Shown here in pieces: positions 45,851 through 60,230 of a stretch of 64,000 bases of DNA. Origin of the DNA: Polaribacter sp. MED152 (GTDB lineage: Bacteria > Bacteroidota > Bacteroidia > Flavobacteriales > Flavobacteriaceae); the NCBI RefSeq assembly GCF_000152945.2, contig NC_020830.1:1498501-1562500 (forward strand). The letters run 5' to 3'. A program made the position numbers and the translations under genes. How positions within the stretch are numbered: position 1 is the first letter of the stretch; each line of letters begins with the position of its first letter. A model generated the notes under the pieces. The model saw nothing but the letters and a program-made list of their open reading frames with translations. It had not been told where the DNA came from and searched no databases.

Positions 45851-46552
45851 ATGAATAAAAAAGACAAACAGGCTGCAGACCGAATTTACCTCATTCTAGC
45901 AGCACTTTTTATAGCATCCTTAGTGACCTCTAACTTAATTTTTCAAAAATTTTTTTACTGGTATCCTTTTCAACTAGAAGTATTTGATGTAAAATTATTT
46001 GAAGTTTCTGTAGGCCTATTGCCTTACCCAATCACCTTTTTAATTACAGATATTTTATCGGAAATTTATGGTAAACGAAAAGCAAATGAAGTTGTAATTG
46101 CTGGTATTTTTGCTTCTTTCTTTTCATTACTCATTATATATGTATCCAAAGAAGTACCTGCAACCTCTTGGTCTAAGGTAGATGACACCACGTTCGTAGA
46201 AGTTTTTGGTGCTGCACCTTTAGCTGTATTGGCTTCTATGTTGGCTTATTTATTTGCACAGTTTATAGATATTAGAGTTTATCATTTTTGGAAAAAACTT
46301 ACAAATGGGAAACACCTTTGGCTGAGAAATAATTTCTCTACATTTTCTTCTCAGTTTATAGATACAATGACTGTTCTTTTATTGCTTTGTTCTTTTGAAA
46401 TTATTGAATGGAATAAATTCTGGGGATTATTAATTAGTGGTGTACTTTTTAAAATAATCATTGCAGCTTTAGACACTCCGTTTTTATACTTGGCTGTTTA
46501 TGCATTTAGAAAACGATTCCGATTAAAAATAAATGAGGAAATTTTAGACTAA
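45851..46552 (+). CDS. yhhQ: queuosine precursor transporter (YhhQ/VUT family)
   Basis: A 233-residue membrane protein with about six helices. LVTSNLIFQKFF in helix 1, PITFLITDILSEIYGKRKAN and the FIDTMTVLLL segment are family signatures. YhhQ members import preQ0/preQ1 bases for queuosine tRNA modification. Very little space separates an imperfect -7 element (TAACTTCG, 45838-45845) from the ATG, so the mRNA may be nearly leaderless. Queuosine enzymes are not in the window. It is 53 bases upstream of the DUF547 gene and may be read into it. Confidence 0.9.
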   Translation: MNKKDKQAADRIYLILAALFIASLVTSNLIFQKFFYWYPFQLEVFDVKLFEVSVGLLPYPITFLITDILSEIYGKRKANEVVIAGIFASFFSLLIIYVSKEVPATSWSKVDDTTFVEVFGAAPLAVLASMLAYLFAQFIDIRVYHFWKKLTNGKHLWLRNNFSTFSSQFIDTMTVLLLLCSFEIIEWNKFWGLLISGVLFKIIIAALDTPFLYLAVYAFRKRFRLKINEEILD

Positions 46553-46605: not shown

Positions 46606-47316
46606 ATGAAACAATTATCTTTATTATTTTTTGCCCTTGTTTTTAGTACTCAGGTAAATGCACAAACATCAATATTTTCAAATTTACTAGAAAAACATGT
46701 TAGCACAGAAGGGTTTGTAAACTATGATGCCTTTAAAGCAGATGAGGCACAGTTAGACAACTATTTATCACATTTAAAAAGTACTATTCCAGATAATTCG
46801 TGGTCAGAAAATCAATTAAAAGCCTTTTGGATTAATGCTTACAATGCTTATACCATAAAACTTATTTTAAAAAATTATCCTTTAAAATCGATAATGGATA
46901 TTAAGAAGGATGGCAAAACTGCATGGAAAATTCCGTTTGCAAAAGTAGGTGGAGAAACCTATACTCTAGATGAGATAGAGCATACTATTTTAAGAAAAAA
47001 ATACTTTGACCCAAGAATTCATGTTGGTGTAAATTGTGCATCTATTTCTTGTCCAAAAATCTTAAATAAAGCCTTTACTGCTGTAAATATTGATAGTGAG
47101 TTAGAAGAACTAATGAAAGAATTTGTGAACGATTCATCTCGAAACAAATTAGGAAAAAAGAAAGTTCAAATTTCTTCTATTTTTGATTGGTTTAAAGACG
47201 ATTTTACAAAAAATGGTAGTGTAATCGATTACTTAAATAAATATGCCAACACAGCAATTAATCCAAAAGCAAAAATCTCTTATTTGAAATACGATTGGAG
47301 ATTGAACAGTAAATAA
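46606..47316 (+). CDS. secreted DUF547 protein
   Basis: A 236-residue protein with a signal peptide (MKQLSLLFFALVFSTQVNAQ) and one DUF547 domain: FWINAYNAYTIKLIL (about 67-81), then HVGVNCASISCPKIL (about 145-159), with conserved His and Cys residues reminiscent of a thiol-peptidase-like fold, and a C-terminal IFDWFKDDF. Function is not established. It is 39 bases before the AhpD-like gene and begins the ArsS-centred gene series. Whether it belongs to that pathway or is only a neighbour is open. Confidence 0.85.
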   Translation: MKQLSLLFFALVFSTQVNAQTSIFSNLLEKHVSTEGFVNYDAFKADEAQLDNYLSHLKSTIPDNSWSENQLKAFWINAYNAYTIKLILKNYPLKSIMDIKKDGKTAWKIPFAKVGGETYTLDEIEHTILRKKYFDPRIHVGVNCASISCPKILNKAFTAVNIDSELEELMKEFVNDSSRNKLGKKKVQISSIFDWFKDDFTKNGSVIDYLNKYANTAINPKAKISYLKYDWRLNSK

Positions 47317-47320
47317 TTAC

Positions 47321-47328
47321 TATCTTTC
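47321..47328 (+). promoter_or_regulatory. possible -7 element of the ArsS cluster
   Basis: TATCTTTC matches 7 of 8 positions of TAnnTTTG and lies 28 bases before the AhpD-like start. A TTGG at 47295-47298 could be a -33 element at slightly long spacing. Confidence 0.3.
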
Positions 47329-47355
47329 ATATTTTTTATAAAACAAATTCAATTT

Positions 47356-47691
47356 ATGTCTAAAACATATTACGATGCTGCTGATTTGAGAAAATTTGGC
47401 AAAATAACAGAATGGAGTGAAGAACTAGGAAACAAGTTTTTCGATTATTATGGAAAAGTTTTTGAAGAAGGTGCCTTAACTGCTCGTGAAAAATCGTTAA
47501 TAGCCTTGGCTGTTGCACATACAGAACAATGCCCTTATTGCATAGATGCCTATACTAAAGATGGTTTACAACGAGGCATTACCAAACCAGAAATGATGGA
47601 AGCCATTCATGTAGGTGCTGCTATTAAAAGTGGAGCAACTTTGGTGCATGGTGTTCAAATGATGAACAAGGTGAATAAACTAGAAATGTAA
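47356..47691 (+). CDS. AhpD-like carboxymuconolactone decarboxylase family protein, ArsS-associated
   Basis: A 111-residue AhpD-fold protein. The redox-type motif is EQCPYCIDAYTKDGL (CxxC around residues 57-60), followed by the family helix with EMMEAIHVGAAI and a His in LVHGVQMM. This small peroxidase-like subfamily is regularly encoded with the arsenosugar radical-SAM enzyme ArsS, as here (104 bases upstream of arsS). It may protect or reduce trivalent arsenic or thiol intermediates; that role is inference. Confidence 0.88.
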   Translation: MSKTYYDAADLRKFGKITEWSEELGNKFFDYYGKVFEEGALTAREKSLIALAVAHTEQCPYCIDAYTKDGLQRGITKPEMMEAIHVGAAIKSGATLVHGVQMMNKVNKLEM

Positions 47692-47795
47692 GTGATTCAC
47701 TAAAAAGTGATGGGGCTTAAAAAACCACAAAACCATTTTCTGCGTACATAAAGTAAATAACCTAAAAAAGATTCTGAGATAACTTCAGCATACAT

Positions 47796-48851
47796 ATGGC
47801 TACAAAATCATTAAAAGCAAGAAATAACGATATCGCAAATACCTCTCGTCAAATGGAAATTCTTTCAAACGGAATTTTCGCAGACGGTGAGTTGCCAACC
47901 TTTGCAAAAAAAATAAAAGAAACCAATCAATTTCCTTTACGTCCAAAAAAATTAGAAATTCTTCAAATTAACTTAGGCTACATGTGTAACCAAGTTTGTG
48001 AGCACTGTCATGTAGATGCAGGTCCAGACCGAAAGGAAATTATGACTGTAGAAACCATGCAGCAATGTTTGGATATTATAAAAAAAACAGAAGCCCACAC
48101 TTTAGATTTAACTGGTGGTGCCCCTGAAATGAATCCTAATTTTAGATGGTTTGTAGAAGAAGCATCTAAAGCCGGAATTAAAGATTTTATTGTGCGTTCT
48201 AATTTAACCATTATTAGAGCCAATAAAAAATATTACGATTTACCTGAATTCTTTAAAAAACACAATGTACATGTGGTTTCTTCAATGCCTCATTGGACTC
48301 GTGGAAAAACAGACAAACAAAGAGGTGATGGTGTTTTTGATAAATCTATCAAAGCATTGCAAGAACTAAATGCTGTTGGTTATGGTATGCCTGGTTCTGA
48401 TTTAAAATTAGACTTGGTTTACAATCCTTCAGGAGCATTTTTACCTGGAGATCAACAAGCCCTAGAAAACGATTTTAAGAAAGCCTTAAAAGAGGAATTC
48501 AATATCGATTTTCATAGTTTGTTTGCCATCACAAATTTACCAATCAGTAGATTTTTAGATTATTTAATTGCTTCAGACAATTATGAAGATTATATGTATG
48601 CTTTAGTAGACGCTTATAATCCTGCAGCTGTAGAGAATGTAATGTGTACAAATACATTATCTATTAGTTGGGATGGTTGGTTATATGATTGTGACTTTAA
48701 CCAGATGCTAAATTTAAAAGTAGCCAATAAAGTAAAGCATGTTTCTGATTATAATGAAGAATTGTTACAAGACAGAAACATTATTATAAACCAACATTGC
48801 TATGGTTGTACTGCAGGTGCAGGTAGTAGTTGTCAAGGTGTAGTTGCATAA
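47796..48851 (+). CDS. arsS: arsenosugar biosynthesis radical SAM protein ArsS
   Basis: A 351-residue radical SAM enzyme. The cluster-binding motif CxxxCxxC is Cys64, Cys68 and Cys71 (MCNQVCEHCHVDAGP), and DLTGGAPEMNPNFRW is the SAM-binding GGE-like segment. The C-terminal DUF3641 part carries further cysteines (VMCTNTL, YDCDFN, HCYGCTAG, SSCQG) that could hold a second cluster. ArsS transfers the 5'-deoxyadenosyl group to dimethylarsenite, giving 5'-deoxy-5'-dimethylarsinoyl-adenosine, the precursor of arsenosugars. ArsM, which makes dimethylarsenite, is not in the window. Cysteines, not selenocysteine, are used at the motif. Confidence 0.93.
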   Translation: MATKSLKARNNDIANTSRQMEILSNGIFADGELPTFAKKIKETNQFPLRPKKLEILQINLGYMCNQVCEHCHVDAGPDRKEIMTVETMQQCLDIIKKTEAHTLDLTGGAPEMNPNFRWFVEEASKAGIKDFIVRSNLTIIRANKKYYDLPEFFKKHNVHVVSSMPHWTRGKTDKQRGDGVFDKSIKALQELNAVGYGMPGSDLKLDLVYNPSGAFLPGDQQALENDFKKALKEEFNIDFHSLFAITNLPISRFLDYLIASDNYEDYMYALVDAYNPAAVENVMCTNTLSISWDGWLYDCDFNQMLNLKVANKVKHVSDYNEELLQDRNIIINQHCYGCTAGAGSSCQGVVA

Positions 48852-48894
48852 TTTAAGATTCTAATTTCTCCCCCAAAAGAGAAAATAAAACTAT

Positions 48895-49572
48895 TTGATT
48901 CAAAATACTGCCATATTAATTTTTGCAAATTCAGCTGAAAAAGATGCTGAAAGAAAATCGTTTCTTTCTGCTGATGCTATTGCTGCATTAAATAAAGACA
49001 CTTTAAAGAAGGTTAAGAAATCTGGAATTACGTATTTCCATTTTTCTGAAAAAAATCAAGTTGGCGCTAATTTTGGTGAGCGTTTTTCTAATGCAATTGC
49101 TTCCGTTTTTAAGAAAGGATATCAGAATATAATTACCATTGGTAATGATACTCCTCATTTAAAAACAAGCCATATTCTCAAAGCTGCTCATCAGCTAGAA
49201 CATAACCATTTAGTTTTAGGACCTTCTAAAGATGGTGGTTTTTACTTAATGGGAATCAAAAAAGCACATTTCAATAAAAAAGCTTTTGTAAAATTACCTT
49301 GGCAAACAAAGTTGTTAAACGCTTACATTTCTAAACTTTCTGCTGGCAGTAATAGTTCTATTGCTTACCTAGAGCTTTTGAATGATTTAGATGTACAAGA
49401 AGATATTGCCACAATTTTAGAAAGTCGTTTTTATATTAATAAAGAAGTACTTCTAATTTTAAAAAAGCTTTTCATTTTTAATAAAGCTACTTTTTATCAT
49501 CTAGAAAAAAGTATTGAATCTTTTCTGCAACCTTTATATTACAATAAAGGCTCACCTAGCCTTGCTGTTTAG
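48895..49572 (+). CDS. DUF2064 glycosyltransferase-like protein, divergent copy
   Basis: A 225-residue protein of the TIGR04282/DUF2064 group associated with arsenosugar clusters. The core TIGNDTPHLKTSHILKAAHQL and VLGPSKDGGFYLMGIKK match the family's nucleotide-sugar or NTP site region. The N-terminal KTRL-type motif seen in the second copy (56979-57593) is missing here, and the C-terminus has an extra tail of about 45 residues. The start is a TTG at 48895, since no ATG precedes the first strand. It follows arsS by 43 bases. Confidence 0.82.
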   Translation: MIQNTAILIFANSAEKDAERKSFLSADAIAALNKDTLKKVKKSGITYFHFSEKNQVGANFGERFSNAIASVFKKGYQNIITIGNDTPHLKTSHILKAAHQLEHNHLVLGPSKDGGFYLMGIKKAHFNKKAFVKLPWQTKLLNAYISKLSAGSNSSIAYLELLNDLDVQEDIATILESRFYINKEVLLILKKLFIFNKATFYHLEKSIESFLQPLYYNKGSPSLAV

Positions 49573-49633
49573 TTCGTTTTTGTTGCCTTAGCAACACCTC
49601 AATCAAAATTCTTTTACACAAAATTACTACGTA

Positions 49634-52600
49634 ATGAAACACATTTTTATGTGGATTTTACTGTTGGCAACTAGCATCAGTTTTTCACAAATTAAAATAT
49701 CGGGTACAGTTACCGATAAAAGTTCTGGAATGGGTATTCCTTCTGTAGCCATAGCTACTTCATCAGAAAACGGAACAACTTCAGACATAAATGGATCGTA
49801 TACCATTTTTGTAACTGATAACAATCAGGTATTAACCTTTTCGTATTTAGGATACAAAACACAAAAAATAACTATTGGAACTCAAAGAATCATCAATGTT
49901 CAATTAGAAGAAATTGAAACCAATTTAGATGAAATTGTGGTAACAGCCTTAGGTTTAAATAGAAAAACAAAAGAACTGGGTTATGTGGTTCAAGAACTAA
50001 AATCAAAAGAAGTTACCAGCGTAAAAACAGTAAACTTCCTAGATAACTTAGCTGGTAAATTGGCAGGTGTTACTATTTCACAAGGAGCTACAGGTGTAGG
50101 TTCTTCCTCTAAAATTACCATTCGTGGAGAAGCTTCTTTCTCAAATAATAATCCGCTTTTTGTGGTAGATGGTACACCAATAAACAACAACTCCGTATTT
50201 AATTTTACCAACGAAGCAGCTGCTGGTTTTCAAGAAATTGATTTTGGTAATGGAGCTATGGAAGTAAATCCTGATGATATTGAATCTGTTACAGTTTTAA
50301 AAGGGCCAAGTGCAGCAGCTTTGTATGGTACTCGTGCTTCAAATGGTGTAATTGTAATTAACACGAAAGATGGTAGTAAAAAACAAGGTTTAGGGGTAAG
50401 CATTAATTCTTCTATTACGTTTGATTCTGCCTTTCGTTTACCAGATTTTCAAAACGAATATGGTCAAGGAAATTCAGGAAATTTTGAATATGTAGATGGT
50501 TTAGGAGGTGGAGTTAATGATAACATTACCTATTCTTGGGGGCCAAGATTAGATGCAGGAAACTTAATTGCACAATTCGATTCGCCTGTAACTTTAGCTG
50601 ATGGTACTGTTGTAAGAGGTGGAGATACCTCTTTATATTCAGGCAACACTATTACTCCTACTCTTTTTCAATCAAATCCAGATAATTTAAAAGACTTTTA
50701 TCAAACAGGAGTAACCACCATTAATAACATTGCTATTAACGATAGTTTTGAAAGAGGTTCTTACAGATTATCTATTACAGATTTAGATAGTGAATCTATT
50801 ATTCCTGGTGTTAACTTAGAGCGAAAAACGGCTGCTTTAAAGTTAAATTTCAATCCTTCAGAAAAAACAAGAATTACAAGTTCTGTAAACTATGTAAATT
50901 CAAGTTCAAACAATAGACCTGCAAATGGTTATGGTAGCGAAAATGCAAACTATTCTTTAGTTGCTTGGGGGCCAAGATCTTTAAATATTGATAGTTTACG
51001 CGATTATTGGCAGCCAGGTTTAGAGGGCGTTCAGCAATACTCTTTCAATTATACATTTTTCGATAATCCGTTTTTTATTTTAAAAGAAAATACGAATGCT
51101 TTCAATAGAGATCGTGTTTTTGGAAACATTGCTGTAAAACATCAATTTACAGATAATTTAAGTGTTTCTCTTCGATCAGGAATGGATTATTCATCAGAAA
51201 AGAGAGAACTAAAACGAAACTTTAGTAGCAATCGTTTTAAAAATGGTGCTTATGCAGAACACGATGTTTTTTACAGAGAGGTTAATACCGATTTTTTAGT
51301 GAATTACAACAATACTTTTGGTGATGTTTCTTTCGATGTTTCTTTTGGTGGTAACAGATTAGACCAAAATGCAAGTACAAAACAAACACAAACTACCAAT
51401 TTGGCTCAGCCTGGTATTTTTAGCTTAAACAATGCAGCATCTCCTTTAGAGGTTTTTGAATTTACGTCTAAAAAGAGAATCAACTCTTTATATGGTATCG
51501 CTAAATTTGGTTACAAAGACTTTTTGTTCGTAGACATTACAGGCAGAAACGATTGGTCTAGTGCATTAGCCACACCTTTTTCTATAGATGGTACATCCTT
51601 CTTTTACCCTTCTGTATCTTCTAGTTTCATTCTTTCTAATTATACAGAATTGCCTTCGGCTATTTCTTTTGCAAAGCTAAGAGCAAGTATTGCTCAAGTG
51701 GGTAATGACACCAATCCTTATCAAACTTCTGGTGCCTTTGTGTCACAAACGCCATTTAATGGGCAACCCACCTTTAGCAATCAAGAATTTATACCGAATT
51801 CAAATCTAAGGCCAGAAATTACCACTTCTTATGAATTGGGTGCAGATTTGCGTTTCTTTAAAGATCGATTAAATATTGACTTTACCTATTACAATGCCAC
51901 CACAAAAGATCAAATCATTTCTTTACCAATTCCTATTTCTTCAGGATACAATCAACAGGTTATTAATGGCGGAAAAGTAAATACCTCTGGTGTTGAAATT
52001 ATTTTAGGAGGTACACCAATACAAACCGAAAACTTTACTTGGAACACCACTTTTAACTTTGCAAGTAACAAATCTGTAATTAAAGATTTACCTCAAAATG
52101 ATGGACGTTTAACTTTGGCTTACAGCAGAATTTACAACAGTGCCAATCAAACAGTTTGGTTTCAAGTAGAAGAAGGTGGTCAAATAGGTGACATGTATGG
52201 TACAGGTTATGAAAAAAATGCAGAGGGTGAATTTCTCCTAGATGATAATGGTAGATATATTGCCAATAACGATTTAATAAAAATTGGAAACTACAATCCA
52301 GATTTCACTTTAGGTTGGAACAACTCTTTTCGTTACAAAAACTGGAACTCAAGTTTCTTGTTCGATTGGAGACAAGGAGGAGAAATTGTTTCGAGAACCA
52401 GAGCTTTAGGTAATGTAGGTGGCCAATTAGCAGAAACTGCTTTCAGACCAGATGCAGGTATTGTTGCTCAAGGTGTAAATATAAATACAGGTCTGCCCAA
52501 CACAGTTGCTGTAACTGCAGAAAGCTATTACAGACAATTTTACGATAGAAACCATGAAGAAAACAATGTGTATGATGCATCTTTCTTAAAACTTCGTCAA

Positions 52601-52828
52601 GTTTCTATAGGCTATGTATTAAATTTAGAAGAAGGTTTTTTAGGTTTAAAAGATACCTCTAGCATGAGTTTTTCATTTATAGGCAACAACCTTTTTGTGC
52701 TTACAGAAAACCCACATTTCGATCCAGAACAATTGGCTGTACAAGGCAATGGTTTTGTAAGTGGTGTAGAAGATATGAGTTATGCCACTAGCAGAAGTTT
52801 AGGGTTTAAAGTAGGGTTTAATTTCTAG
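49634..52828 (+). CDS. SusC/RagA-type TonB-dependent outer-membrane receptor
   Basis: A 1064-residue outer-membrane importer. Signal peptide (MKHIFMWILLLATSISFSQ), carboxypeptidase-regulatory-like domain (about 22-95, ISGTVTDKSSGMGIPSVAI), TonB-box-like DEIVVTALGLNRKTKELGYV, plug domain with NPLFVVDGTPINN and SAAALYGTRASNGVIVI, then the beta-barrel ending in GFKVGFNF. It is followed by the SusD gene 36 bases later, the standard pair for energised uptake of a bulky ligand. No glycan-degrading genes accompany it. Location in the ArsS cluster suggests an arsenic-related organic substrate, which is inference. Confidence 0.95.
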   Translation: MKHIFMWILLLATSISFSQIKISGTVTDKSSGMGIPSVAIATSSENGTTSDINGSYTIFVTDNNQVLTFSYLGYKTQKITIGTQRIINVQLEEIETNLDEIVVTALGLNRKTKELGYVVQELKSKEVTSVKTVNFLDNLAGKLAGVTISQGATGVGSSSKITIRGEASFSNNNPLFVVDGTPINNNSVFNFTNEAAAGFQEIDFGNGAMEVNPDDIESVTVLKGPSAAALYGTRASNGVIVINTKDGSKKQGLGVSINSSITFDSAFRLPDFQNEYGQGNSGNFEYVDGLGGGVNDNITYSWGPRLDAGNLIAQFDSPVTLADGTVVRGGDTSLYSGNTITPTLFQSNPDNLKDFYQTGVTTINNIAINDSFERGSYRLSITDLDSESIIPGVNLERKTAALKLNFNPSEKTRITSSVNYVNSSSNNRPANGYGSENANYSLVAWGPRSLNIDSLRDYWQPGLEGVQQYSFNYTFFDNPFFILKENTNAFNRDRVFGNIAVKHQFTDNLSVSLRSGMDYSSEKRELKRNFSSNRFKNGAYAEHDVFYREVNTDFLVNYNNTFGDVSFDVSFGGNRLDQNASTKQTQTTNLAQPGIFSLNNAASPLEVFEFTSKKRINSLYGIAKFGYKDFLFVDITGRNDWSSALATPFSIDGTSFFYPSVSSSFILSNYTELPSAISFAKLRASIAQVGNDTNPYQTSGAFVSQTPFNGQPTFSNQEFIPNSNLRPEITTSYELGADLRFFKDRLNIDFTYYNATTKDQIISLPIPISSGYNQQVINGGKVNTSGVEIILGGTPIQTENFTWNTTFNFASNKSVIKDLPQNDGRLTLAYSRIYNSANQTVWFQVEEGGQIGDMYGTGYEKNAEGEFLLDDNGRYIANNDLIKIGNYNPDFTLGWNNSFRYKNWNSSFLFDWRQGGEIVSRTRALGNVGGQLAETAFRPDAGIVAQGVNINTGLPNTVAVTAESYYRQFYDRNHEENNVYDASFLKLRQVSIGYVLNLEEGFLGLKDTSSMSFSFIGNNLFVLTENPHFDPEQLAVQGNGFVSGVEDMSYATSRSLGFKVGFNF

Positions 52829-52864
52829 TTCTTGCTAGCTTAAGAATTCTTAAAATAAGAAAAC

Positions 52865-54304
52865 ATGAAAAAATATATAGTCATCATTACAATATTCATT
52901 GCAGCTACTACAGGCTGTACCAAAGATTTTGAAGAAATCAATACCAACCCAAATGCACCTGTGGCTGTGCAACCAAGTTTGCTATTAAGGCAGGTTATTT
53001 ATGATTTTGGTGAACAAATGAGTTACGAAGGTTTTGTTGCAGGCGATTTGTTAGGGCAGCACAGAACTGCATTAGATTTTAATTTATTTGATAGACACGA
53101 TTTAAAAAGTCCGCAATTGGGTGGAAATCCTTGGTCTATTTTTTACACCAATTTGCGTGATAATGAAATCATACTAAACCAAAGTAGAACTACAGATGCT
53201 TTTGCTGTGTATGAGGGTCCTGCCTTAATTTTAAAAGCTTATATGGCTGCTGGTTTAACAGATTTATTTGGAGATGTTCCTTACTTTGAAGCCTTTAATG
53301 GTGTAGAAGGTACTGTAACCCCTAAGTATGATTTGCAAGAAGATATCTATCAAAATGAAAACGGAATTTTAGACAATTTAGAAAAAGGTATTGCTGCCAT
53401 AAACGCCTACAATGGTTCTATTGGTTTAGAGGGTGATATCTTATTTGACGGAAACTTGCAATTTTGGATTCAGTTTGCCAACTCTTTAAAAATTAAATAC
53501 CTCATTCGTATTTCTAAAAAAGTAGATGTTGCTGCTCAGCTGCAAAGCATCTATACTCAAGGCAATTATATTACCAATAATAGTGATAATGCAGTATTCG
53601 ATTTTACCAATTCAGAACCAAACAGTTTTAGATTAGCGCAATTAAGAGTTGGAGATTTCAACAACTTTGTGCTTTCTGAAACTATGGAAGAAATTCTGTT
53701 AGATTTAGATGATGCTAGAATTGCCACCTTTTTTAGACCTTTTGCAAACGCATCTTCCAACGAATTTAATGGTTTAATAAACGGAATTAACTCTTCTACA
53801 ACCTCAATTGCTTTAGCAGATTATTCGCTATCAGGCACTGCTTTTAGAGAAGACACCTCTACTCTAGATGCCAATTTTATGACTGCTTGGGAAACTAGTT
53901 TCTTACTGGCAGAAGCTGCAGCAAAAGGGTTGATTACTGCCAATGCAGAAACGCTTTACAATGAGGGTGTTGCACAAGCTTTTGAGTATTGGAATACTGC
54001 TTTGCCAAGCAATTATTTAGTAGGTAATGCCAATTACAATGCTGCAGGTACGACTCCTTTAGCGCAAATCATAACCCAAAAATGGATTGCCTCTATCATT
54101 CAAGGTTATGAAGGGTGGATAGAATATAGAAGAACAGGTTTTCCTGCACTTAAGGCTGTTTCTGCAAGTTTAAATAACGGATTAATTCCTGTTAGAATGC
54201 CTTATCCTGCAGAAGCTGCAACTTTAAATCAAGAAAATTACAGTGTAGCTGAAGCTGCAACAAATGGCAATAGTTTAGATGTAAACGTTTGGTGGAACGA
54301 ATAA
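52865..54304 (+). CDS. SusD/RagB-family surface lipoprotein
   Basis: A 479-residue lipoprotein with lipobox TTGC (Cys18) and the SusD-like opening TKDFEEINTNPNAPVAVQP. The helical TPR-type region includes ANSLKIKYLIRISK and TAWETSFLLAEAAAKGLI, and the C-terminal half includes ITQKWIASIIQGYEGWIEYRRTGFP. It pairs with the SusC protein encoded just upstream to capture ligand at the cell surface. The symporter gene starts 1 base after its stop codon. Confidence 0.93.
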   Translation: MKKYIVIITIFIAATTGCTKDFEEINTNPNAPVAVQPSLLLRQVIYDFGEQMSYEGFVAGDLLGQHRTALDFNLFDRHDLKSPQLGGNPWSIFYTNLRDNEIILNQSRTTDAFAVYEGPALILKAYMAAGLTDLFGDVPYFEAFNGVEGTVTPKYDLQEDIYQNENGILDNLEKGIAAINAYNGSIGLEGDILFDGNLQFWIQFANSLKIKYLIRISKKVDVAAQLQSIYTQGNYITNNSDNAVFDFTNSEPNSFRLAQLRVGDFNNFVLSETMEEILLDLDDARIATFFRPFANASSNEFNGLINGINSSTTSIALADYSLSGTAFREDTSTLDANFMTAWETSFLLAEAAAKGLITANAETLYNEGVAQAFEYWNTALPSNYLVGNANYNAAGTTPLAQIITQKWIASIIQGYEGWIEYRRTGFPALKAVSASLNNGLIPVRMPYPAEAATLNQENYSVAEAATNGNSLDVNVWWNE

Positions 54305-54305
54305 T

Positions 54306-55637
54306 ATGGATGTAATCAATTGGCAATGGGCGTTGGTTATTTGTTCAAGTATAATCTTGTTCTTTTTATCACCACTCGCAAAAACTACAGATGAATTCTT
54401 TAAAGCAGTTCATAAAAAGAAAGCACCTAACACCTTAGTGCTAACTGGTAGCTTAATCATTTCATGGATTTTTGCAAAGAGTATAACCAATGCAGCCAAT
54501 TTAGGCTTGGCATTTGGTTTAGTAGGTGGTGTTGCTTATGCTGGGTATTACCTATCTTTTGCTGTAGCAGGCGTTATCATTTATCAATTAAGAACGCAAG
54601 GTAATTTTACAAGCATCCATCATTTTCTAAGTTCTAAATTTGGGAAACAAGCTGTAGCTATTTTCTCATTGCTTATCGCATTTAGATTGTTCAACGAAGT
54701 TTGGAGCAATACCATGGTTATTGGCAATTATTTTGGTGATGTTGGCAGTGCCTCTTACTATTGGTCTATATTAATTTTTACAGGTTTAACCTTAAGCTAT
54801 GCCTTAAAAGGTGGTTTAAGTAGTTCTATTTTTACTGATGTACTTCAAATGGTATTGTTTGCAGTTTTACTCATTGTAATATTAGCTTCGTTGTTTCAAA
54901 CCGAAGATTTTTCCTCAAAAGAAATTCTAAATTCAGGAACTTGGAGTTTTGAACTGGGGCTGAATTTGTTTTTTGCAGCACTTTTACAATCCTTTAGTTA
55001 TCCTTTTCACGACCCTGTTCTTACAGATCGCGGATTTATAAGCAGCCCAAAAGTAACGCGTAAAAGTTTTCTTTGGGCAAGTATTTTAGGTGCTTTCTGT
55101 ATCATCTTTTTTAGTTTTATTGGTATTTATGCACAAACGCAAGGTTTAGATGGACAAGCTGCAGTTGCTGTAGGTAAAGCTTTTGGTGTAGTGTTGTTAT
55201 TAGTCATTAATTTTATAATGATTACCTCTGCAGCCTCTACCTTAGACTCAACATTTTCATCATTTTCTAAATTATTGGCGGTAGATTTAAATTTAGGAAA
55301 ATCCGTTTCTTTTGGACGATTGGCCATGGTTGCAGCAGCCATTTTAGGTACAATTCCTGTTTTTTTAAATGCAGAAATTTTATCAGCAACCACCATATCA
55401 GGAACAATGGTAATTGGGTTAACACCTATCTTTATTTTCTGGAAACAGAACGTTCCTAAAATTAGTTTTTACCTATCTGTAGGTGCTGGCTTGGTTTTTG
55501 GCATCCTTTTAGTGTTTGATGTTTTACCTGAAGCACTCATTTTTACTGAAGGCAAGTATGCCAGTTTATTGTGGGTAAATCTTTGGGGCATTAGCAGTTG
55601 TATCATTTTATATTTTATTCCAAAATGGATCAGATAA
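54306..55637 (+). CDS. sodium:solute symporter family protein
   Basis: A 443-residue inner-membrane transporter with about 12-13 helices of the SSS/LeuT fold. Family signals include the helix 5-6 region YALKGGLSSSIFTDVLQMVLF, PFHDPVLTDRGFIS and ITSAASTLDSTFSSFSKLLAVDL, the latter near the sodium site. It starts one base after the SusD stop codon, so the outer- and inner-membrane steps are translationally linked. The substrate is unknown. Its 3' end overlaps the metallophosphoesterase-like gene by 13 bases. Confidence 0.92.
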   Translation: MDVINWQWALVICSSIILFFLSPLAKTTDEFFKAVHKKKAPNTLVLTGSLIISWIFAKSITNAANLGLAFGLVGGVAYAGYYLSFAVAGVIIYQLRTQGNFTSIHHFLSSKFGKQAVAIFSLLIAFRLFNEVWSNTMVIGNYFGDVGSASYYWSILIFTGLTLSYALKGGLSSSIFTDVLQMVLFAVLLIVILASLFQTEDFSSKEILNSGTWSFELGLNLFFAALLQSFSYPFHDPVLTDRGFISSPKVTRKSFLWASILGAFCIIFFSFIGIYAQTQGLDGQAAVAVGKAFGVVLLLVINFIMITSAASTLDSTFSSFSKLLAVDLNLGKSVSFGRLAMVAAAILGTIPVFLNAEILSATTISGTMVIGLTPIFIFWKQNVPKISFYLSVGAGLVFGILLVFDVLPEALIFTEGKYASLLWVNLWGISSCIILYFIPKWIR

Positions 55638-56452
55638 CAGAAAAATTAGGTCAGAAATCAGGAAAACTACTTGTTTTTGGTGGTGTGTATAGCAATTTAC
55701 AAGCCCTAGAGGCCTTAAAGCAAGTTGCAGAACAAGAAGGTATTGCACCAGAAAACTGCATTTGTACAGGAGATATTGTAGGCTATTGTGCTCAACCAGA
55801 AGAAACAGTACAACTCTTTAAATTATGGGGCGCAAAAAGTATTGTGGGAAACGTAGAAATACAATTACGAGAAAATGCTGCAGATTGTGGTTGCGATTTT
55901 AGAGAAGGCTCAAGATGCGATGGCTTTTCGCAATTGTGGTATCCTTATGCACAAAGCAAACTTTCTGAAAATTCGTTAGCTTTTCTAAAAACATTACCCA
56001 ATTACATCAACTTTAGGTATGCTAATCAAAAGGTTAATGTGGTGCATGGTTCGTATTTTAATGTATCAGAATTTATATTTAAATCTACACCTTGGGCAAC
56101 AAAACAACCTAATTTTAAAGCCACAAAAAGTGATATAATTATTGCTGGGCATTGTGGTTTACCCTTTTATCATCAAAAAGAAAATAAGTTATGGTTAAAT
56201 CCTGGTGTTATTGGTATGCCAGCAAATGATGGTAATCCTTCTGTTTGGTACGCCATTTTAGATGATGCACAGAATACTTTGTCTTTTACACATAAAACCT
56301 TAAATTACAATTATAAATTAACCAGTAAATTAATGCAAAATGATTTGTTACCAGAAGAGTATTCAAGAACCATAGTTACTGGCATTTGGGACAATACAGA
56401 AATTTTACCTGCCATAGAAAGTGGCTTGCAAGGTTTTGGAATACAATTATAA
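55625..56452 (+). CDS. metallophosphoesterase-fold protein with missing metal ligands
   Basis: A 275-residue protein. The calcineurin-like phosphoesterase layout is clear: KLLVFGGVYSNLQALEAL (normally DxHGN), CTGDIVGYCAQPEE (GD, Asp50), IVGNVEIQL (GNH-type, Asn76), VVHGSY (His141), IIAGHCGLPF (GHxH, His176). However, the Asp and His of motif I are Gly and Tyr, the His of GNHD/E is Val, and the second His of GHxH is Gly. Seven cysteines (45, 47, 55, 88, 90, 98, 177) are present, some near metal positions. The start is the ATG at 55625; a longer frame lies inside the symporter. The enzyme may be inactive, or use a different metal or arsenic ligation. Confidence 0.85.
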   Translation: MDQITEKLGQKSGKLLVFGGVYSNLQALEALKQVAEQEGIAPENCICTGDIVGYCAQPEETVQLFKLWGAKSIVGNVEIQLRENAADCGCDFREGSRCDGFSQLWYPYAQSKLSENSLAFLKTLPNYINFRYANQKVNVVHGSYFNVSEFIFKSTPWATKQPNFKATKSDIIIAGHCGLPFYHQKENKLWLNPGVIGMPANDGNPSVWYAILDDAQNTLSFTHKTLNYNYKLTSKLMQNDLLPEEYSRTIVTGIWDNTEILPAIESGLQGFGIQL

Positions 56453-56457
56453 TCATC

Positions 56458-56949
56458 ATGAAAAGAATTGCTTTTTTACTACTATTTATTAGTACGGCTA
56501 CTTTTGGGCAACATAAATTAGATAAGTTACTCGAAAAATGGAACAAGAGAAATGTGCCCTACATGTCTGTAGAAACTTTAGCCTTGCCACAAACTGATGC
56601 TATTTTATTAGACGCAAGAGATCAAAAAGAATATAATGTAAGTCATTTGAAAAACGCCATTCGAGTGGGATATGATGATTTTAAAATCAACGAAACCCTA
56701 CCCAAATTACCCAAAGATAAAAATGCAAAAATAGTGGTTTACTGCTCTTTAGGCATTCGCTCTGAAACTGTAGCGTACAAATTAATGCAAGAAGGCTATA
56801 CCAACGTTTACAATTTGTATGGTGGAATTTTTGAATGGAAAAACGCCAATTTTAAAGTCGTAGATACTTTGGGCAATGACACAGAAAAAGTACACACGTT
56901 TAACAAGACTTGGAGCAAATGGCTTCAGAAAGGAAAAAAAGTGTACTAA
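56458..56949 (+). CDS. secreted rhodanese-like protein
   Basis: A 163-residue single rhodanese domain with a signal peptide (MKRIAFLLLFISTATFGQ), so it acts in the periplasm. The persulfide loop is VVYCSLGIRSETVA, with Cys at the catalytic place and a six-residue loop (CSLGIR) of the sulfurtransferase rather than phosphatase type. NAIRVGYDDF and NLYGGIFEWKN are typical. The ATG at 56458 is 5 bases after the preceding stop codon; a longer frame overlapping the upstream gene lacks a signal peptide. It may supply sulfur for thio-arsenic species, which is inference. Confidence 0.9.
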   Translation: MKRIAFLLLFISTATFGQHKLDKLLEKWNKRNVPYMSVETLALPQTDAILLDARDQKEYNVSHLKNAIRVGYDDFKINETLPKLPKDKNAKIVVYCSLGIRSETVAYKLMQEGYTNVYNLYGGIFEWKNANFKVVDTLGNDTEKVHTFNKTWSKWLQKGKKVY

Positions 56950-56978
56950 GTTCTAACCTCTAAAAGCACAAAAAATTC

Positions 56979-57593
56979 ATGCATAAAAACCTACTACTCA
57001 TTTTTACAAGAAATCCAGAATTGGGTAAAGCTAAAACACGTTTGGCCAAAACAGTGGGCGATGAAACTGCACTTGATATTTATAAGTTCTTATTAGAAAG
57101 GACAAGAGATGAAGCTATTCAAGTAGCAGCAGATAAAGCAGTTTACTATTCAGTTAAAGTTAGAGAAAATGACATTTGGGATGCTGCTCTATTTCAAAAA
57201 CACCAACAAAAAGGAGCAGATTTAGGCCATAGAATGCAACATGCTTTTGAGCAAGGATTTAAAGCTGGTTACGAAAAAGTACTTATTGTAGGCAGTGATT
57301 TGTATGATTTGTCTTCTAAAAATATCGATTATGCTTTTGAAACATTAGACCAACATGATGTAGTACTTGGTCCTGCAGAAGATGGTGGGTATTATTTATT
57401 GGGCATGAAAACTTTACATGCGTCTATATTTCACCACAAAGAATGGGGTACTTCCACAGTAAGAGCAGATACTTTAGCAGATTTAAAATCACAAAACGTT
57501 AAACTATTAGCAATAAAAAACGATATTGATTTGTATGAGGATATAGAATCTATACCAGAAATTATGAATCGTTTTATTCTAAATAAAAATTAA
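56979..57593 (+). CDS. TIGR04282/DUF2064 arsenosugar-associated glycosyl- or nucleotidyltransferase
   Basis: A 204-residue protein with the GT-A-like nucleotide-binding fold. LLLIFTRNPELGKAKTRLAKTVGDE (shown here by its key residues Arg, Pro, Gly, Lys-Thr-Arg-Leu) is the NTP-loop type N-terminus. VLIVGSDLYDL and VVLGPAEDGGYYLLGMK complete the site. Named in databases as an arsenosugar glycosyltransferase family, but the fold is equally that of nucleotidyltransferases, so it might activate a sugar 1-phosphate. It is the intact counterpart of the divergent copy at 48895-49572. PNP follows 24 bases later. Confidence 0.9.
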   Translation: MHKNLLLIFTRNPELGKAKTRLAKTVGDETALDIYKFLLERTRDEAIQVAADKAVYYSVKVRENDIWDAALFQKHQQKGADLGHRMQHAFEQGFKAGYEKVLIVGSDLYDLSSKNIDYAFETLDQHDVVLGPAEDGGYYLLGMKTLHASIFHHKEWGTSTVRADTLADLKSQNVKLLAIKNDIDLYEDIESIPEIMNRFILNKN

Positions 57594-57617
57594 AAAACAC
57601 ACAATTCGATAGCTATT

Positions 57618-58433
57618 ATGAAAGCAGCACAGTTACAAGAAACCATACAATTTTTAAAAGCAAAAGGCATAGACAACCCAGAAGTTGGTATTGTTTTAGG
57701 TACGGGCTTAGGTAAATTGGTAGACGAGATTGAGATTAGTATTGAAGTCGCTTATTCAGATATTCCGAATTTTCCATTAGCTACTGTAGAATTTCATTCA
57801 GGTAGAATTATATACGGAACCTTATCAGGTAAAAAAGTTGTGGTGATGTCTGGTCGCTTTCATTTGTATGAAGGCTACACGCCTTGGGAGGTTACTTATG
57901 GCATTCGTACCCTACATGGTTTAGGCATTCAAAATTTATTGATTTCTAATGCTGCAGGTGCTATAAATCTAGACTATAACAAAGGCGATTTAATGCTAAT
58001 TGAAGACCATATCAATTTACAAGGCAGTTCTCCTCTAGCCTTTAAAGGTGCTAATGAGTTTGGAAACATTTTTGCTGATATGTTAGAACCTTATTCAAAA
58101 GCCACGAACACCCAAATAAATTTAATTGCAACAGAACAAAACATTCAGTTACACAATGGAACCTATGCCAGTGTTTTAGGCCCTCAATTAGAAACAAGAG
58201 CAGAATACAGAATGCTTCAAATTTTAGAGGTAGATGCAGTAGGTATGAGTACTGTACCAGAAGTAATTGTTGCCAAGCAATTAAACCTACCTTGTGCAGC
58301 CATTTCTGTATTAACAGATGAATGCGATCCTAAAAACTTACAACCTGTAGATATTGCAGAAATCATCGCTATTGCTGGTGAAGCAGAACCAAAAATGATT
58401 GCATTATTTAAAGGAATTATAGAAAAATTATAA
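57618..58433 (+). CDS. purine nucleoside phosphorylase-like enzyme, probable 5'-modified adenosine specificity
   Basis: A 271-residue trimeric (PNP-I/MTAP) phosphorylase. The phosphate site is kept: VLGTGLG, Arg80 and His82 ([10 protein letters not shown]), and Ser211 in GMSTVPEV. Glu192 corresponds to human PNP Glu201. Two differences matter: Asp234 (SVLTDECD) stands at human Asn243, the purine-recognition residue, and the His that contacts the ribose 5'-OH (human His257) aligns with Ala247. Human MTA phosphorylase also has Asp and a small residue at these places and cleaves a 5'-substituted adenosine. In this cluster the likely substrate is the ArsS product. Specificity is inference from a by-eye alignment. 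Confidence 0.88.
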
Positions 58434-58465
58434 AAAGCGCTATAGCCCTTGAGTGCTACTTTTTT

Positions 58466-59425
58466 ATGAACCATCACTTCCAATCTTTTATCCTACAACA
58501 AACAAAAGCAAACTCTCTACTAGAAAAAGAGGTTATCCAATCGCTTTGGAGTGGCTATGGCCAAATTAAACGCATTGCTTTACAGGGTTCTGATATTAAA
58601 AGTGTAGTGGTTAAAAACATACAATTGCCTCAGCAAGATCTTCATCCTAGAGGTTGGAATTGCGAAATTGGCCATCAGCGTAAGCTAAAATCGTATCAAG
58701 TAGAAACACATTGGTATAAAAAGTATGCCTCAAATAGTAAAGCTAGATTACCTAAATGTTATGGCATCACTACTCAAAAAGATGAAGTTTGTATCCTATT
58801 AGAAGATTTAGATTCAGCTGGCTATAACCATAGAAAACAAAGCCTTTCTTGGCAAGGTATTGCCAATTGTTTAGCATGGCTAGCCAAGTTTCATGCCTCT
58901 TATTTAGACAAACACCCTCAAGATTTATGGAATATAGGCACCTATTGGCATTTAGCAACAAGACCCCAAGAATTAGAGGCTTTACAAGATCAAAATTTAA
59001 AAGCAGCTGCTCATAAAATTGATGAAAAATTAAACCAATGTACCTACAAAACTTTTGTACATGGTGATGCCAAATTGGCCAATTTTTGTTTTTCTGATTC
59101 TAATGAAGTGGCTGGTGTAGATTTTCAATATGTAGGTGCTGGTTGTGGTATGAAAGACGTTGCTTATTTTATAGGCAGTTGTTTGTCTGAAAAAGAATGC
59201 GAGCGTTTAGAATCACAAATTTTAGATACCTATTTTGAATATTTACACAAAGCTTTAAGCAAAGAACAAAAAGCCTTAGAAAAAGAATGGCGTGCATTGT
59301 ACCCAGTAGCTTGGGCAGATTTTCATCGTTTTTTAAAAGGATGGAGTCCTGGCCATTGGAAAATAAATTCTTACAGTGAGCGTGTTACGCAAGAAGTAAT
59401 CAAACAGCTAAATTATGGATCTTAA
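58466..59425 (+). CDS. choline kinase/APH-like phosphotransferase
   Basis: A 319-residue kinase-fold protein. A lysine (Lys50, SVVVKNI) is at the ATP-binding strand, [11 protein letters not shown] is the hinge, [13 protein letters not shown] (His199, Asp201, Asn206) is the catalytic Brenner motif, and [20 protein letters not shown] (Asp219) binds metal. The DFQ variant and the GMKDVAYF helix are typical of CHK/ecdysteroid-kinase-like enzymes. It would phosphorylate a small hydroxylated compound, here perhaps an arseno-ribose or its aglycone (inference). Its last 11 bases overlap the inositol-monophosphatase-like gene. Confidence 0.87.
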
Positions 59426-60230
59426 AGCACTTGCAGATATTGCCACAAAAGCGGCCTTAAAAGCTGGTGAGGTCATCCAAAAATTTGATAGAACCAGCTT
59501 AAAAGTTCAGCAAAAAGAGGGAGGCAATACCTTAGCCTCTCAAGTAGTCACAGCGTTAGATTTGGAGTGCGAAAAGGTAATTCGCACTTATTTAGAACCA
59601 ACATGCACCCAATTTCATTTGGGCATTTTGAGTGAAGAAACCGAAGATGACCAAAGTAGATTTACCAACGACTATTTTTGGTGTGTAGATCCTTTAGATG
59701 GCACCTTAGCGTTTATAAATAATCATCCTGGTTTTTCAGTTTCTATTGCTTTAGTTTCAAAAGAGGGCAAACCTGTAATCGGAGTTGTATTCGACCCAAG
59801 TACTAACAACCTCTATGTGGGTATTTATGGCATTGGCGCTTTTAAAAACGGAAAACCTTGGTTACTAAACAAACCCAATAACAAACTAACCTATATTACC
59901 GATAAAACTTTAAAAGATACTCCACAAAAGGAGGTCATCAAAAAGCACATTCAAAACAGGGTGCAAGTTTTAGACTTAAATGAGTACTGTATAATTTCAG
60001 GAGGTGGTGCAGTATTGAATGCCATCTTAGTTGCAGAAAACAGCCCTGCACTTTTACTTAAACCTCCAAAACTAGAAAAAGGTGGAGGTAGCCTTTGGGA
60101 TTTTGCAGCTACAGTGTGCATATTTCAAGAATTGGGCCTTTCTGCAACTGCTTACAATGGCACAGCCCTAAACTTAAACCCTAAAAACACTACTTTTTTA
60201 AATACACAAGGGGTTTATTTTTGTTCATAA
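59415..60230 (+). CDS. inositol monophosphatase / 3'(2'),5'-bisphosphate nucleotidase family protein
   Basis: A 271-residue lithium-sensitive-type phosphatase fold. The metal residues are Glu74-Glu75 (ILSEETEDD), Asp92 and Asp95 ([11 protein letters not shown]), and Asp229 (GGSLWDFAA). The family removes phosphate from inositol phosphate, fructose bisphosphate or PAP (CysQ). Sequence does not decide among these. As the last gene of the ArsS cluster it could dephosphorylate an arsenosugar phosphate, or clear PAP if a sulfated arsenosugar is made; both are inference. The ATG overlaps the kinase gene by 11 bases. Confidence 0.88.

Follow-up and report, generated by a model that had tools for sequence, protein, structure and literature searches.

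A 13-gene ArsS cluster in Polaribacter sp. MED152 with an ArsS-tied SusCD–symporter block and no detected ArsM

In the ArsM–ArsS route to arsenosugars, methyl groups are supplied by the cell's own ArsM. Adenosylation of arsenic by a radical S-adenosylmethionine (SAM) enzyme belongs to the synthesis of oxo-arsenosugars, according to PMC12159101. We analyzed a cluster encoding an enzyme of this kind (ArsS) in Polaribacter sp. MED152, contained in a stretch of 64,000 nucleotides (NC_020830.1, positions 1,498,501–1,562,500) that is referred to as the window and whose numbering is used for the coordinates below. The cluster has three layers: a conserved arsenosugar core; a putative import block tied to ArsS, comprising a divergent DUF2064 protein (DUF2064a), SusC and SusD homologues, a Na+/solute symporter and a metallophosphoesterase-fold protein (MPE); and two local additions, a kinase and an inositol-monophosphatase-family phosphatase (IMPase). 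The block is associated nearly exclusively with ArsS, absence of ArsM is in excess among the genomes that carry it, and MPE has lost its catalytic motifs. Our preferred reading, held tentatively and at close to even confidence, is that ArsM has been lost from this arsenosugar cluster and that the dedicated block imports methylated arsenic instead. The source of methylated arsenic would then be external, unlike in the ArsM–ArsS route.

Like the arsenosugar set defined in NCBIfam, the cluster contains ArsS (TIGR04167), an AhpD-like protein (TIGR04169), one TIGR04282 protein (DUF2064b) and a rhodanese-domain protein (NF045521), all over their cut-offs, and a TIGR04283 glycosyltransferase is encoded elsewhere in the genome. 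It differs from that set in that the genome has no detected ArsM (NF038099) and in the addition of a purine nucleoside phosphorylase (PNP) and of SusC–SusD–symporter–MPE. PNP is a frequent partner whose family name is unrelated to arsenic, and none of the families matched by the four other proteins is named for arsenic.

The uptake of small organoarsenicals is described as largely unknown in PMC12608789. A precedent for the import reading comes from Pelagibacter, as PMC6426599 reports assays of dimethylarsenate uptake and oxidation in Pelagibacter and in Sargasso Sea water. Both cases would involve a marine heterotroph and dimethylarsenate made by phytoplankton; the difference is that Pelagibacter oxidizes the compound for energy, whereas in MED152 it would become part of a sugar. 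No ArsS is mentioned in the passages on Pelagibacter, in which no search aimed at it was made. ArsS is not named in the available part of PMC13171826. Among the literature matches listed (titles and beginnings of abstracts, a partial coverage that does not establish absence from print), none deals with the block or with PNP in arsenosugar synthesis.

Linkage of the putative import block to ArsS

Two samples of arsS loci were compared with the window, the first comprising 80 named loci (the best 80 of at least 587) and the second comprising 120 neighbourhoods, each at most 20 kb long, from an even draw of Flavobacteriaceae genomes. The latter represent part of the 147 ArsS genomes besides that of MED152; the 27 genomes left out have the lowest-scoring ArsS, and seven of them carry the block. 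Genes were counted as present when tblastn (E 1e-6, 30% of the query) gave a match in the stretch, irrespective of position and strand. With 7400 bases fetched upstream, DUF2064a is cut off where the block stands upstream of AhpD.

The complete block occurs in 13 of the 120 neighbourhoods, its part from SusC to MPE in 6 and the symporter–MPE pair only in 3, while DUF2064a is found without other block genes in 12, SusC only in 1, and no block gene in 85. The lone SusC match has 24% identity, lies on the opposite strand and is accompanied by no other block genes, leaving 19 real cases of SusC. In the 80 named loci (window excluded), SusC, the symporter and MPE are each present in 15 and SusD in 14. 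There are at least two arrangements of block and arsS: 17 of the 22 block loci have it downstream of ArsS, where rhodanese, DUF2064b and PNP are present in every case (17/17), and 5 have it upstream of AhpD, a position also seen in 4 named loci. A first-pass annotation of the window, made from the sequence alone, had placed SusC/SusD and the symporter in one system with ArsS, which is borne out by SusC–SusD–symporter–MPE in 19 neighbourhoods and by the symporter–MPE pair in 3 more. It had also named PNP and SusCD lying away from arsS in related genomes as evidence against its reading. This is not borne out for PNP in most neighbourhoods, as PNP lies beside arsS in 95 of 120; SusCD does so only in a minority, although the MPE that accompanies it is within 10 kb of arsS in 29 of 30 carriers.

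Among 199 Flavobacteriaceae genomes, 148 encode ArsS over its cut-off and 30 encode MPE with scores of at least 359 bits, below which the score drops to 71 bits. All 30 MPE genomes encode ArsS, and in 29 of them no more than 10 kb of one contig separates MPE from arsS, the exception (G087) having them 179 kb apart. A sample of 395 genomes from the phylum yielded five strong MPE matches outside the family (50–53% identity); ArsS is present in all five genomes, and the symporter directly precedes MPE in all five. ArsS and MPE share a contig within 2 kb in two of these genomes (G368 and, on opposite strands, G379) and are on other contigs in three. NF038099 ArsM was found in one of the five, with matches of 91 and 116 bits in two others. 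The linkage of the block to ArsS is strong and nearly exclusive; that it carries a methylated arsenical, and does so inward, is what we infer from here on.

The transport proteins were compared with solved structures. The nearest relative of the window SusC in the PDB is BT_2264 (406 bits), which likens the pair to SusCD loci of the BT_2263/BT_2264 type, and the best PDB match of SusD is 5j5u. Unlike such loci, the window pair is tied to an ArsS locus and is accompanied by no degradative enzyme, as no carbohydrate-degrading family was detected among the 13 proteins; the pair consequently does not qualify as a polysaccharide utilization locus. For the symporter, the choline transporter SLC5A7 was found as a remote relative (E 1e-5 with a single sequence, 6e-7 with a profile), followed by two weaker matches to SGLT1. 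Assignment of its substrate from solved structures was attempted, and no inference was drawn from the remote choline-transporter match. DUF2064a, at 103 bits against the 134 of its family, has lost the GxxKTRL motif.

MPE shows a metallophosphoesterase fold (PF12850) from which the catalytic metal motifs are absent. Compared with metallophosphoesterases of the YfcE/SapH type, DxH is replaced by GxY, GNHD by GNVE and GHxH by GHCG, and extra invariant cysteines are present. In the best 120 of 3786 homologues, GGxYSN is found in all 120, DxH in none and GHCG in 119. Cysteines are likewise invariant in a 38-row alignment that mixes named and unnamed loci, some probably from the same genome, and no signal peptide is evident. 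On the motif loss in all 120 listed homologues, an active phosphodiesterase was rejected; the phosphatase role assigned in the first pass is not supported, and the loss contradicts the database names given to these proteins (such as metallophosphoesterase, predicted phosphodiesterase or diadenosine tetraphosphatase). Several named Polaribacter species are among those listed with MPE. That all of the MPE cysteines are novel was also considered and rejected, since Cys88, Cys90 and the Cys47 position are shared with intact relatives.

Apparent absence of ArsM and the proposed import of methylated arsenic

The MED152 genome (G000) is a single contig of 2,957,500 bases with 99.95% completeness, and the search for arsM that the first-pass annotation had recommended returned no recognizable ArsM in it: the best match to NF038099 reached 27 bits (cut-off 400) and the best match to the generic NF008823 reached 38 bits (cut-off 263). 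The description of the cluster as a complete system hence fails for synthesis from inorganic arsenic, and TIGR04283 lies elsewhere. The association of the block with ArsM absence had been missed; with ArsM missing, the meaning of the transporters changes.

Across the 199 genomes, NF038099 ArsM is over its cut-off in 116, every one of which encodes ArsS. This ArsM is lacking in 15 of the 30 block carriers compared with 17 of the 118 other ArsS genomes (p 9e-5), and both kinds of ArsM are lacking in 14 of 30 compared with 7 of 118 (p 5e-7). The generic set was read by score; the NF008823 model itself agreed, confirming a generic enzyme in 11 of 35 genomes tested. When the absence of ArsM was simulated on an ArsS tree holding 140 of the 148 genomes, p was 0.0013 for NF038099 and 0.0003 for ArsM of either kind; after removal of eight less complete genomes it was 0.0003 under both definitions, the dropped tips being hand-chosen and not every genome below 90% completeness. 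One of the 14 ArsM-less carriers (G140) is 75% complete. In the ArsS proteins of these 14, the metal-binding cysteines and 143 of the 147 columns conserved in genomes with ArsM are unchanged, indicating that ArsS appears to be still under selection.

Within the genus, ArsM may have been lost here rather than never present. NF038099 ArsM is over the cut-off in 37 of 58 genus genomes, and in the 30 ArsM loci fetched the gene stands directly after ArsS (11), after PNP (15) or between MPE and rhodanese (4). Four congeners have the order symporter–MPE–ArsM–rhodanese, and the window shows that order minus ArsM. A further congener without ArsM over the cut-off (G602) has the identical 13-gene order, kinase and IMPase included. 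As a separate observation, G131 carries a second, partial ArsM-like stretch (L235:8340-8696; 33% identical) downstream of its ArsM, where a short extra C-terminal ArsM match is found.

In the proposed mechanism, SusC/SusD at the outer membrane and the Na+ symporter at the inner membrane would import an arsenical that already bears methyl groups, the simplest candidates being dimethylarsinate and compounds from which it is released. The cysteine-bearing MPE might then receive the arsenical and keep or make its arsenic trivalent, after which ArsS would add the 5′-deoxyadenosyl group. PNP could remove adenine by phosphorolysis to give an arseno-ribose 1-phosphate, DUF2064b may activate this intermediate, and the TIGR04283 glycosyltransferase encoded elsewhere would transfer the activated unit onto glycerol or glycerol phosphate.

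Several observations weigh against this proposal. No specificity for arsenic is evident in the transporters of the block. BT_2264 belongs to what we take to be a peptide system, and SusCD systems usually carry molecules larger than dimethylarsinate. Three of the MPE cysteine positions (Cys88 and Cys90 in DCGC, and Cys47) also occur in the catalytically intact relatives L313–L315. The five loci with the block upstream of AhpD show no rhodanese, DUF2064b or PNP within the fetched stretch. The ArsS tree is poorly resolved, and an independent-pairs test on it found only four usable pairs, had no power and showed nothing. Half of the carriers (15/30) retain NF038099 ArsM and one further carrier (G121) has a generic ArsM, with a match containing one stop; the block is therefore not simply a substitute for ArsM, and the idea of an exact substitution is weakened accordingly. 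ArsS also occurs in the absence of both ArsM and the block in three genomes of 99% completeness (G046, G063 and G098), which means that another solution can be sufficient; the four others among the seven ArsS genomes of this kind are only 77–88% complete. An alternative arsenic role for PNP, the reduction of arsenate in vitro in other organisms, is given in PMC12608789.

A possible but unlikely alternative is that the block imports some other requirement of the pathway, or a finished algal arsenosugar or arsenolipid for reuse, with dimethylarsinate entering unaided and ArsM loss tolerated in habitats rich in methylated arsenic, where it merely correlates with the block. The combination of SusCD and a Na+ symporter, both established families, typically serves organic nutrients, and this explanation would accommodate the carriers that retain ArsM, the three nearly complete genomes with neither ArsM nor block, and the presence of the later genes PNP and DUF2064b in all 17 loci with the block downstream. 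It would require a separate cause for the excess of ArsM absence among carriers, and import of a finished arsenosugar makes the strict conservation of ArsS in ArsM-less carriers hard to explain.

That same conservation, together with the intact metal-binding cysteines, renders improbable a second alternative, in which ArsS of ArsM-less genomes acts on a non-arsenic substrate and the neighbourhood handles some other thiophilic or organo-element compound imported by the block. The four congeners of the same gene order also keep an arsenosugar-type ArsM inside the gene run. In its favour, the evidence here consists of genes and no arsenic chemistry, and ArsM beside ArsS is not universal (75 of 120 neighbourhoods). 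We give little credence to an unrecognized methyltransferase that methylates arsenic while the role of the block lies in redox handling or in secreting the product: generic methyltransferases of MED152 do match the ArsM models at 27–38 bits, but these matches are partial, covering only part of the methyltransferase region, and SusCD and SSS proteins are importers as established families. Finally, a polysaccharide- or phosphate-ester-scavenging locus merely adjoining arsS, which SusC/SusD, a symporter and a phosphoesterase-fold protein would fit at first sight, is very improbable given the proximity of MPE to arsS in 29 of 30 carriers with the block in two different positions, the lack of any carbohydrate-degrading family in the scans, the lost MPE motifs and the absence of block genomes without ArsS among the 30 family and 5 outside genomes.

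Returning to import of methylated arsenic, a broader and rather unlikely version can be formulated as an arsenic-methylation auxotrophy of marine Bacteroidota, in which ArsM was given up, a SusCD/TonB and Na+ symporter route was gained, and a phosphatase-fold protein was rebuilt to supply ArsS as a thiol-based reductase or carrier of dimethylarsinate. Phosphatase folds have been turned into arsenic reductases before, and MPE would be a further case. We know of no other outer-membrane importer dedicated to an organoarsenical. If import holds, heterotrophic bacteria that do not methylate arsenic would connect its methylation by algae with the formation of arsenosugars, and the view of who makes arsenosugars in the sea would change. 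For testing, the block offers named genes, among them the symporter and the rebuilt phosphoesterase-fold protein, that are found almost only beside arsS.

Conserved core, later steps and local additions

The 13 open reading frames (Table 1) all lie on the + strand between 46606 and 60230, and the successive intergenic gaps from g1 to g13 are 39, 104, 43, 61, 36, 1, −13, 5, 29, 24, 32 and −11 bases, assuming ATG starts at 56458 for rhodanese and 55625 for MPE. The coordinates thereby confirm what the first-pass annotation saw, 13 same-strand genes with gaps mostly under 45 bases (10 of 12 are at most 45), overlaps of 13 and 11 bases and a 1-base gap. Its wider interpretation is partly supported. 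PNP, the intact DUF2064 protein and rhodanese do belong with ArsS, and of the two DUF2064 proteins it counted, g10 is an intact core member while g4 is divergent and falls below the TIGR04282 cut-off. Its kinase and IMPase, in contrast, were rejected as pathway members on account of their absence from all 120 neighbourhoods.

Table 1. Genes of the ArsS cluster, with family matches from NCBIfam and Pfam profile scans of the 13 proteins (E 0.001) and occurrence in the 120 arsS neighbourhoods
Gene	Product	Coordinates	Strand	Family match and features	Neighbourhoods (of 120)
g1	DUF547 protein, core accessory	46606..47316	+	PF04784 98 bits; N-terminus signal-peptide-like by eye	82
g2	AhpD-like CxxC protein, ArsS core	47356..47691	+	TIGR04169 192.8 bits (cut-off 120)	119
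g3	ArsS radical SAM	47796..48851	+	TIGR04167 439.6 bits (cut-off 300) and DUF3641; CxxxCxxC and C-terminal cysteines intact	
g4	DUF2064a, first block gene	48895..49572	+	TIGR04282 103.3 bits (below cut-off 134); PF09837 above its own cut-off	25
g5	SusC/RagA TonB-dependent outer-membrane transporter, block	49634..52828	+	TIGR04056 608 bits	20
g6	SusD-like outer-membrane lipoprotein, block	52865..54304	+	PF12771 304 bits	19
g7	Na+/solute symporter (SSS), block	54306..55637	+	PF00474 25.4 bits (cut-off 22.8)	22
g8	MPE, phosphoesterase-fold, block	55625..56452	+	PF12850 40.9 bits (cut-off 27); 13-base overlap with g7	22
g9	Rhodanese-domain protein, core	56458..56949	+	NF045521 209 bits (cut-off 145); N-terminus signal-peptide-like by eye	80
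g10	DUF2064b, core	56979..57593	+	TIGR04282 213.6 bits (over cut-off 134); GxxKTRLA intact	95
g11	Trimeric-type PNP, core	57618..58433	+	NF006054 315 bits (cut-off 218); Asp234	95
g12	EcKL/APH-like small-molecule kinase, local addition	58466..59425	+		0
g13	Inositol-monophosphatase-family phosphatase, local addition	59415..60230	+	PF00459 126 bits	0

The families of g2 and g10 are named by NCBI for arsenosugar synthesis, and that of g9 is labelled "near glyco"; g7 matched TIGR00813 at 38.2 bits, below the cut-off of 184. The nearest named arsS relatives are from Polaribacter (93–94% identity), records of MED152 itself or of a very near genome possibly being excluded. The most frequent family order is AhpD–ArsS–rhodanese–DUF2064b–PNP–ArsM–DUF547–glycosyltransferase, and the recurrence of this neighbourhood across Flavobacteriaceae means that the cluster is not a chance grouping. 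A TIGR04283-like glycosyltransferase is present in 71 of the 120 neighbourhoods. By family, g3 is ArsS, with cysteines C64, C68, C71, C284, C299, C335, C338 and C346 present and conserved, and adenosylation of dimethylarsinite is its putative reaction. Rhodanese Cys97 (counting from the residue that precedes the ATG) is present in 129 of 129 rows. DUF2064b matched PDB entry 3cgx, a putative nucleotide-diphospho-sugar transferase, at 96 bits and is probably a nucleotidyl or glycosyl transferase of the core.

The base-specificity position of PNP is occupied by Asp234, an Asp shared by all 154 of 154 rows and also found in the PDB relatives 4lna, 4m1e and 8swt. This position is presumably equivalent to Asn243 of human PNP, where Asp favours 6-aminopurine nucleosides in mutant studies; g11 also retains a Glu that we take to be of the 6-oxopurine type. 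As judged from the protein sequence, the specificity residue is consistent with adenosine derivatives as substrates and not diagnostic of them.

Both transferase families of the arsenosugar pathway are present in the MED152 genome, TIGR04282 as g10 and TIGR04283 outside the locus at G000:C1:1969640 (191.8 bits, cut-off 182). The surroundings of the latter (L286:1275-9453; G000:C1 about 1965914-1974092) encode a glycerol kinase, a GlpD-like protein (350 bits, just below the cut-off of 360) and an NAD(P)H-dependent glycerol-3-phosphate dehydrogenase (GpsA-like). In this one genome, such a context suits the glycerol moiety of known arsenosugars. Beside TIGR04283 stands another DUF547-like gene, with 28% identity to g1.

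The local additions have a narrow distribution: a clear kinase match was found in 3 of 36 genus genomes (MED152 included) and, elsewhere in the order, in 1 of 23 genomes, with one further genus match of 19 bits. The IMPase g13 travels with g12, adjoining the kinase in L326, L327 and L360.

Other genes were noted near arsS. A sterol-desaturase/OlsE-like membrane enzyme stands beside the core in 46 of 120 neighbourhoods (L099, L103 and others), its best NCBIfam match being OlsE at 86 bits, below the cut-off; it might act on an arsenolipid. A Pit/sulfate-permease-like transporter, also with family matches below cut-off, is found in 6 of 120 (L043, L053 and others). A gene of the queuosine-precursor-transporter family lies in the window at 45851-46552, 53 bases upstream of g1; matches to it occur near arsS in 3 of 120 neighbourhoods, and it precedes DUF547 in L039–L041. 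Locus L211 (G002) encodes an ArsS 55% identical to that of the window and has no AhpD match; the symporter–MPE pair directly follows ArsS there, and ArsM is present.

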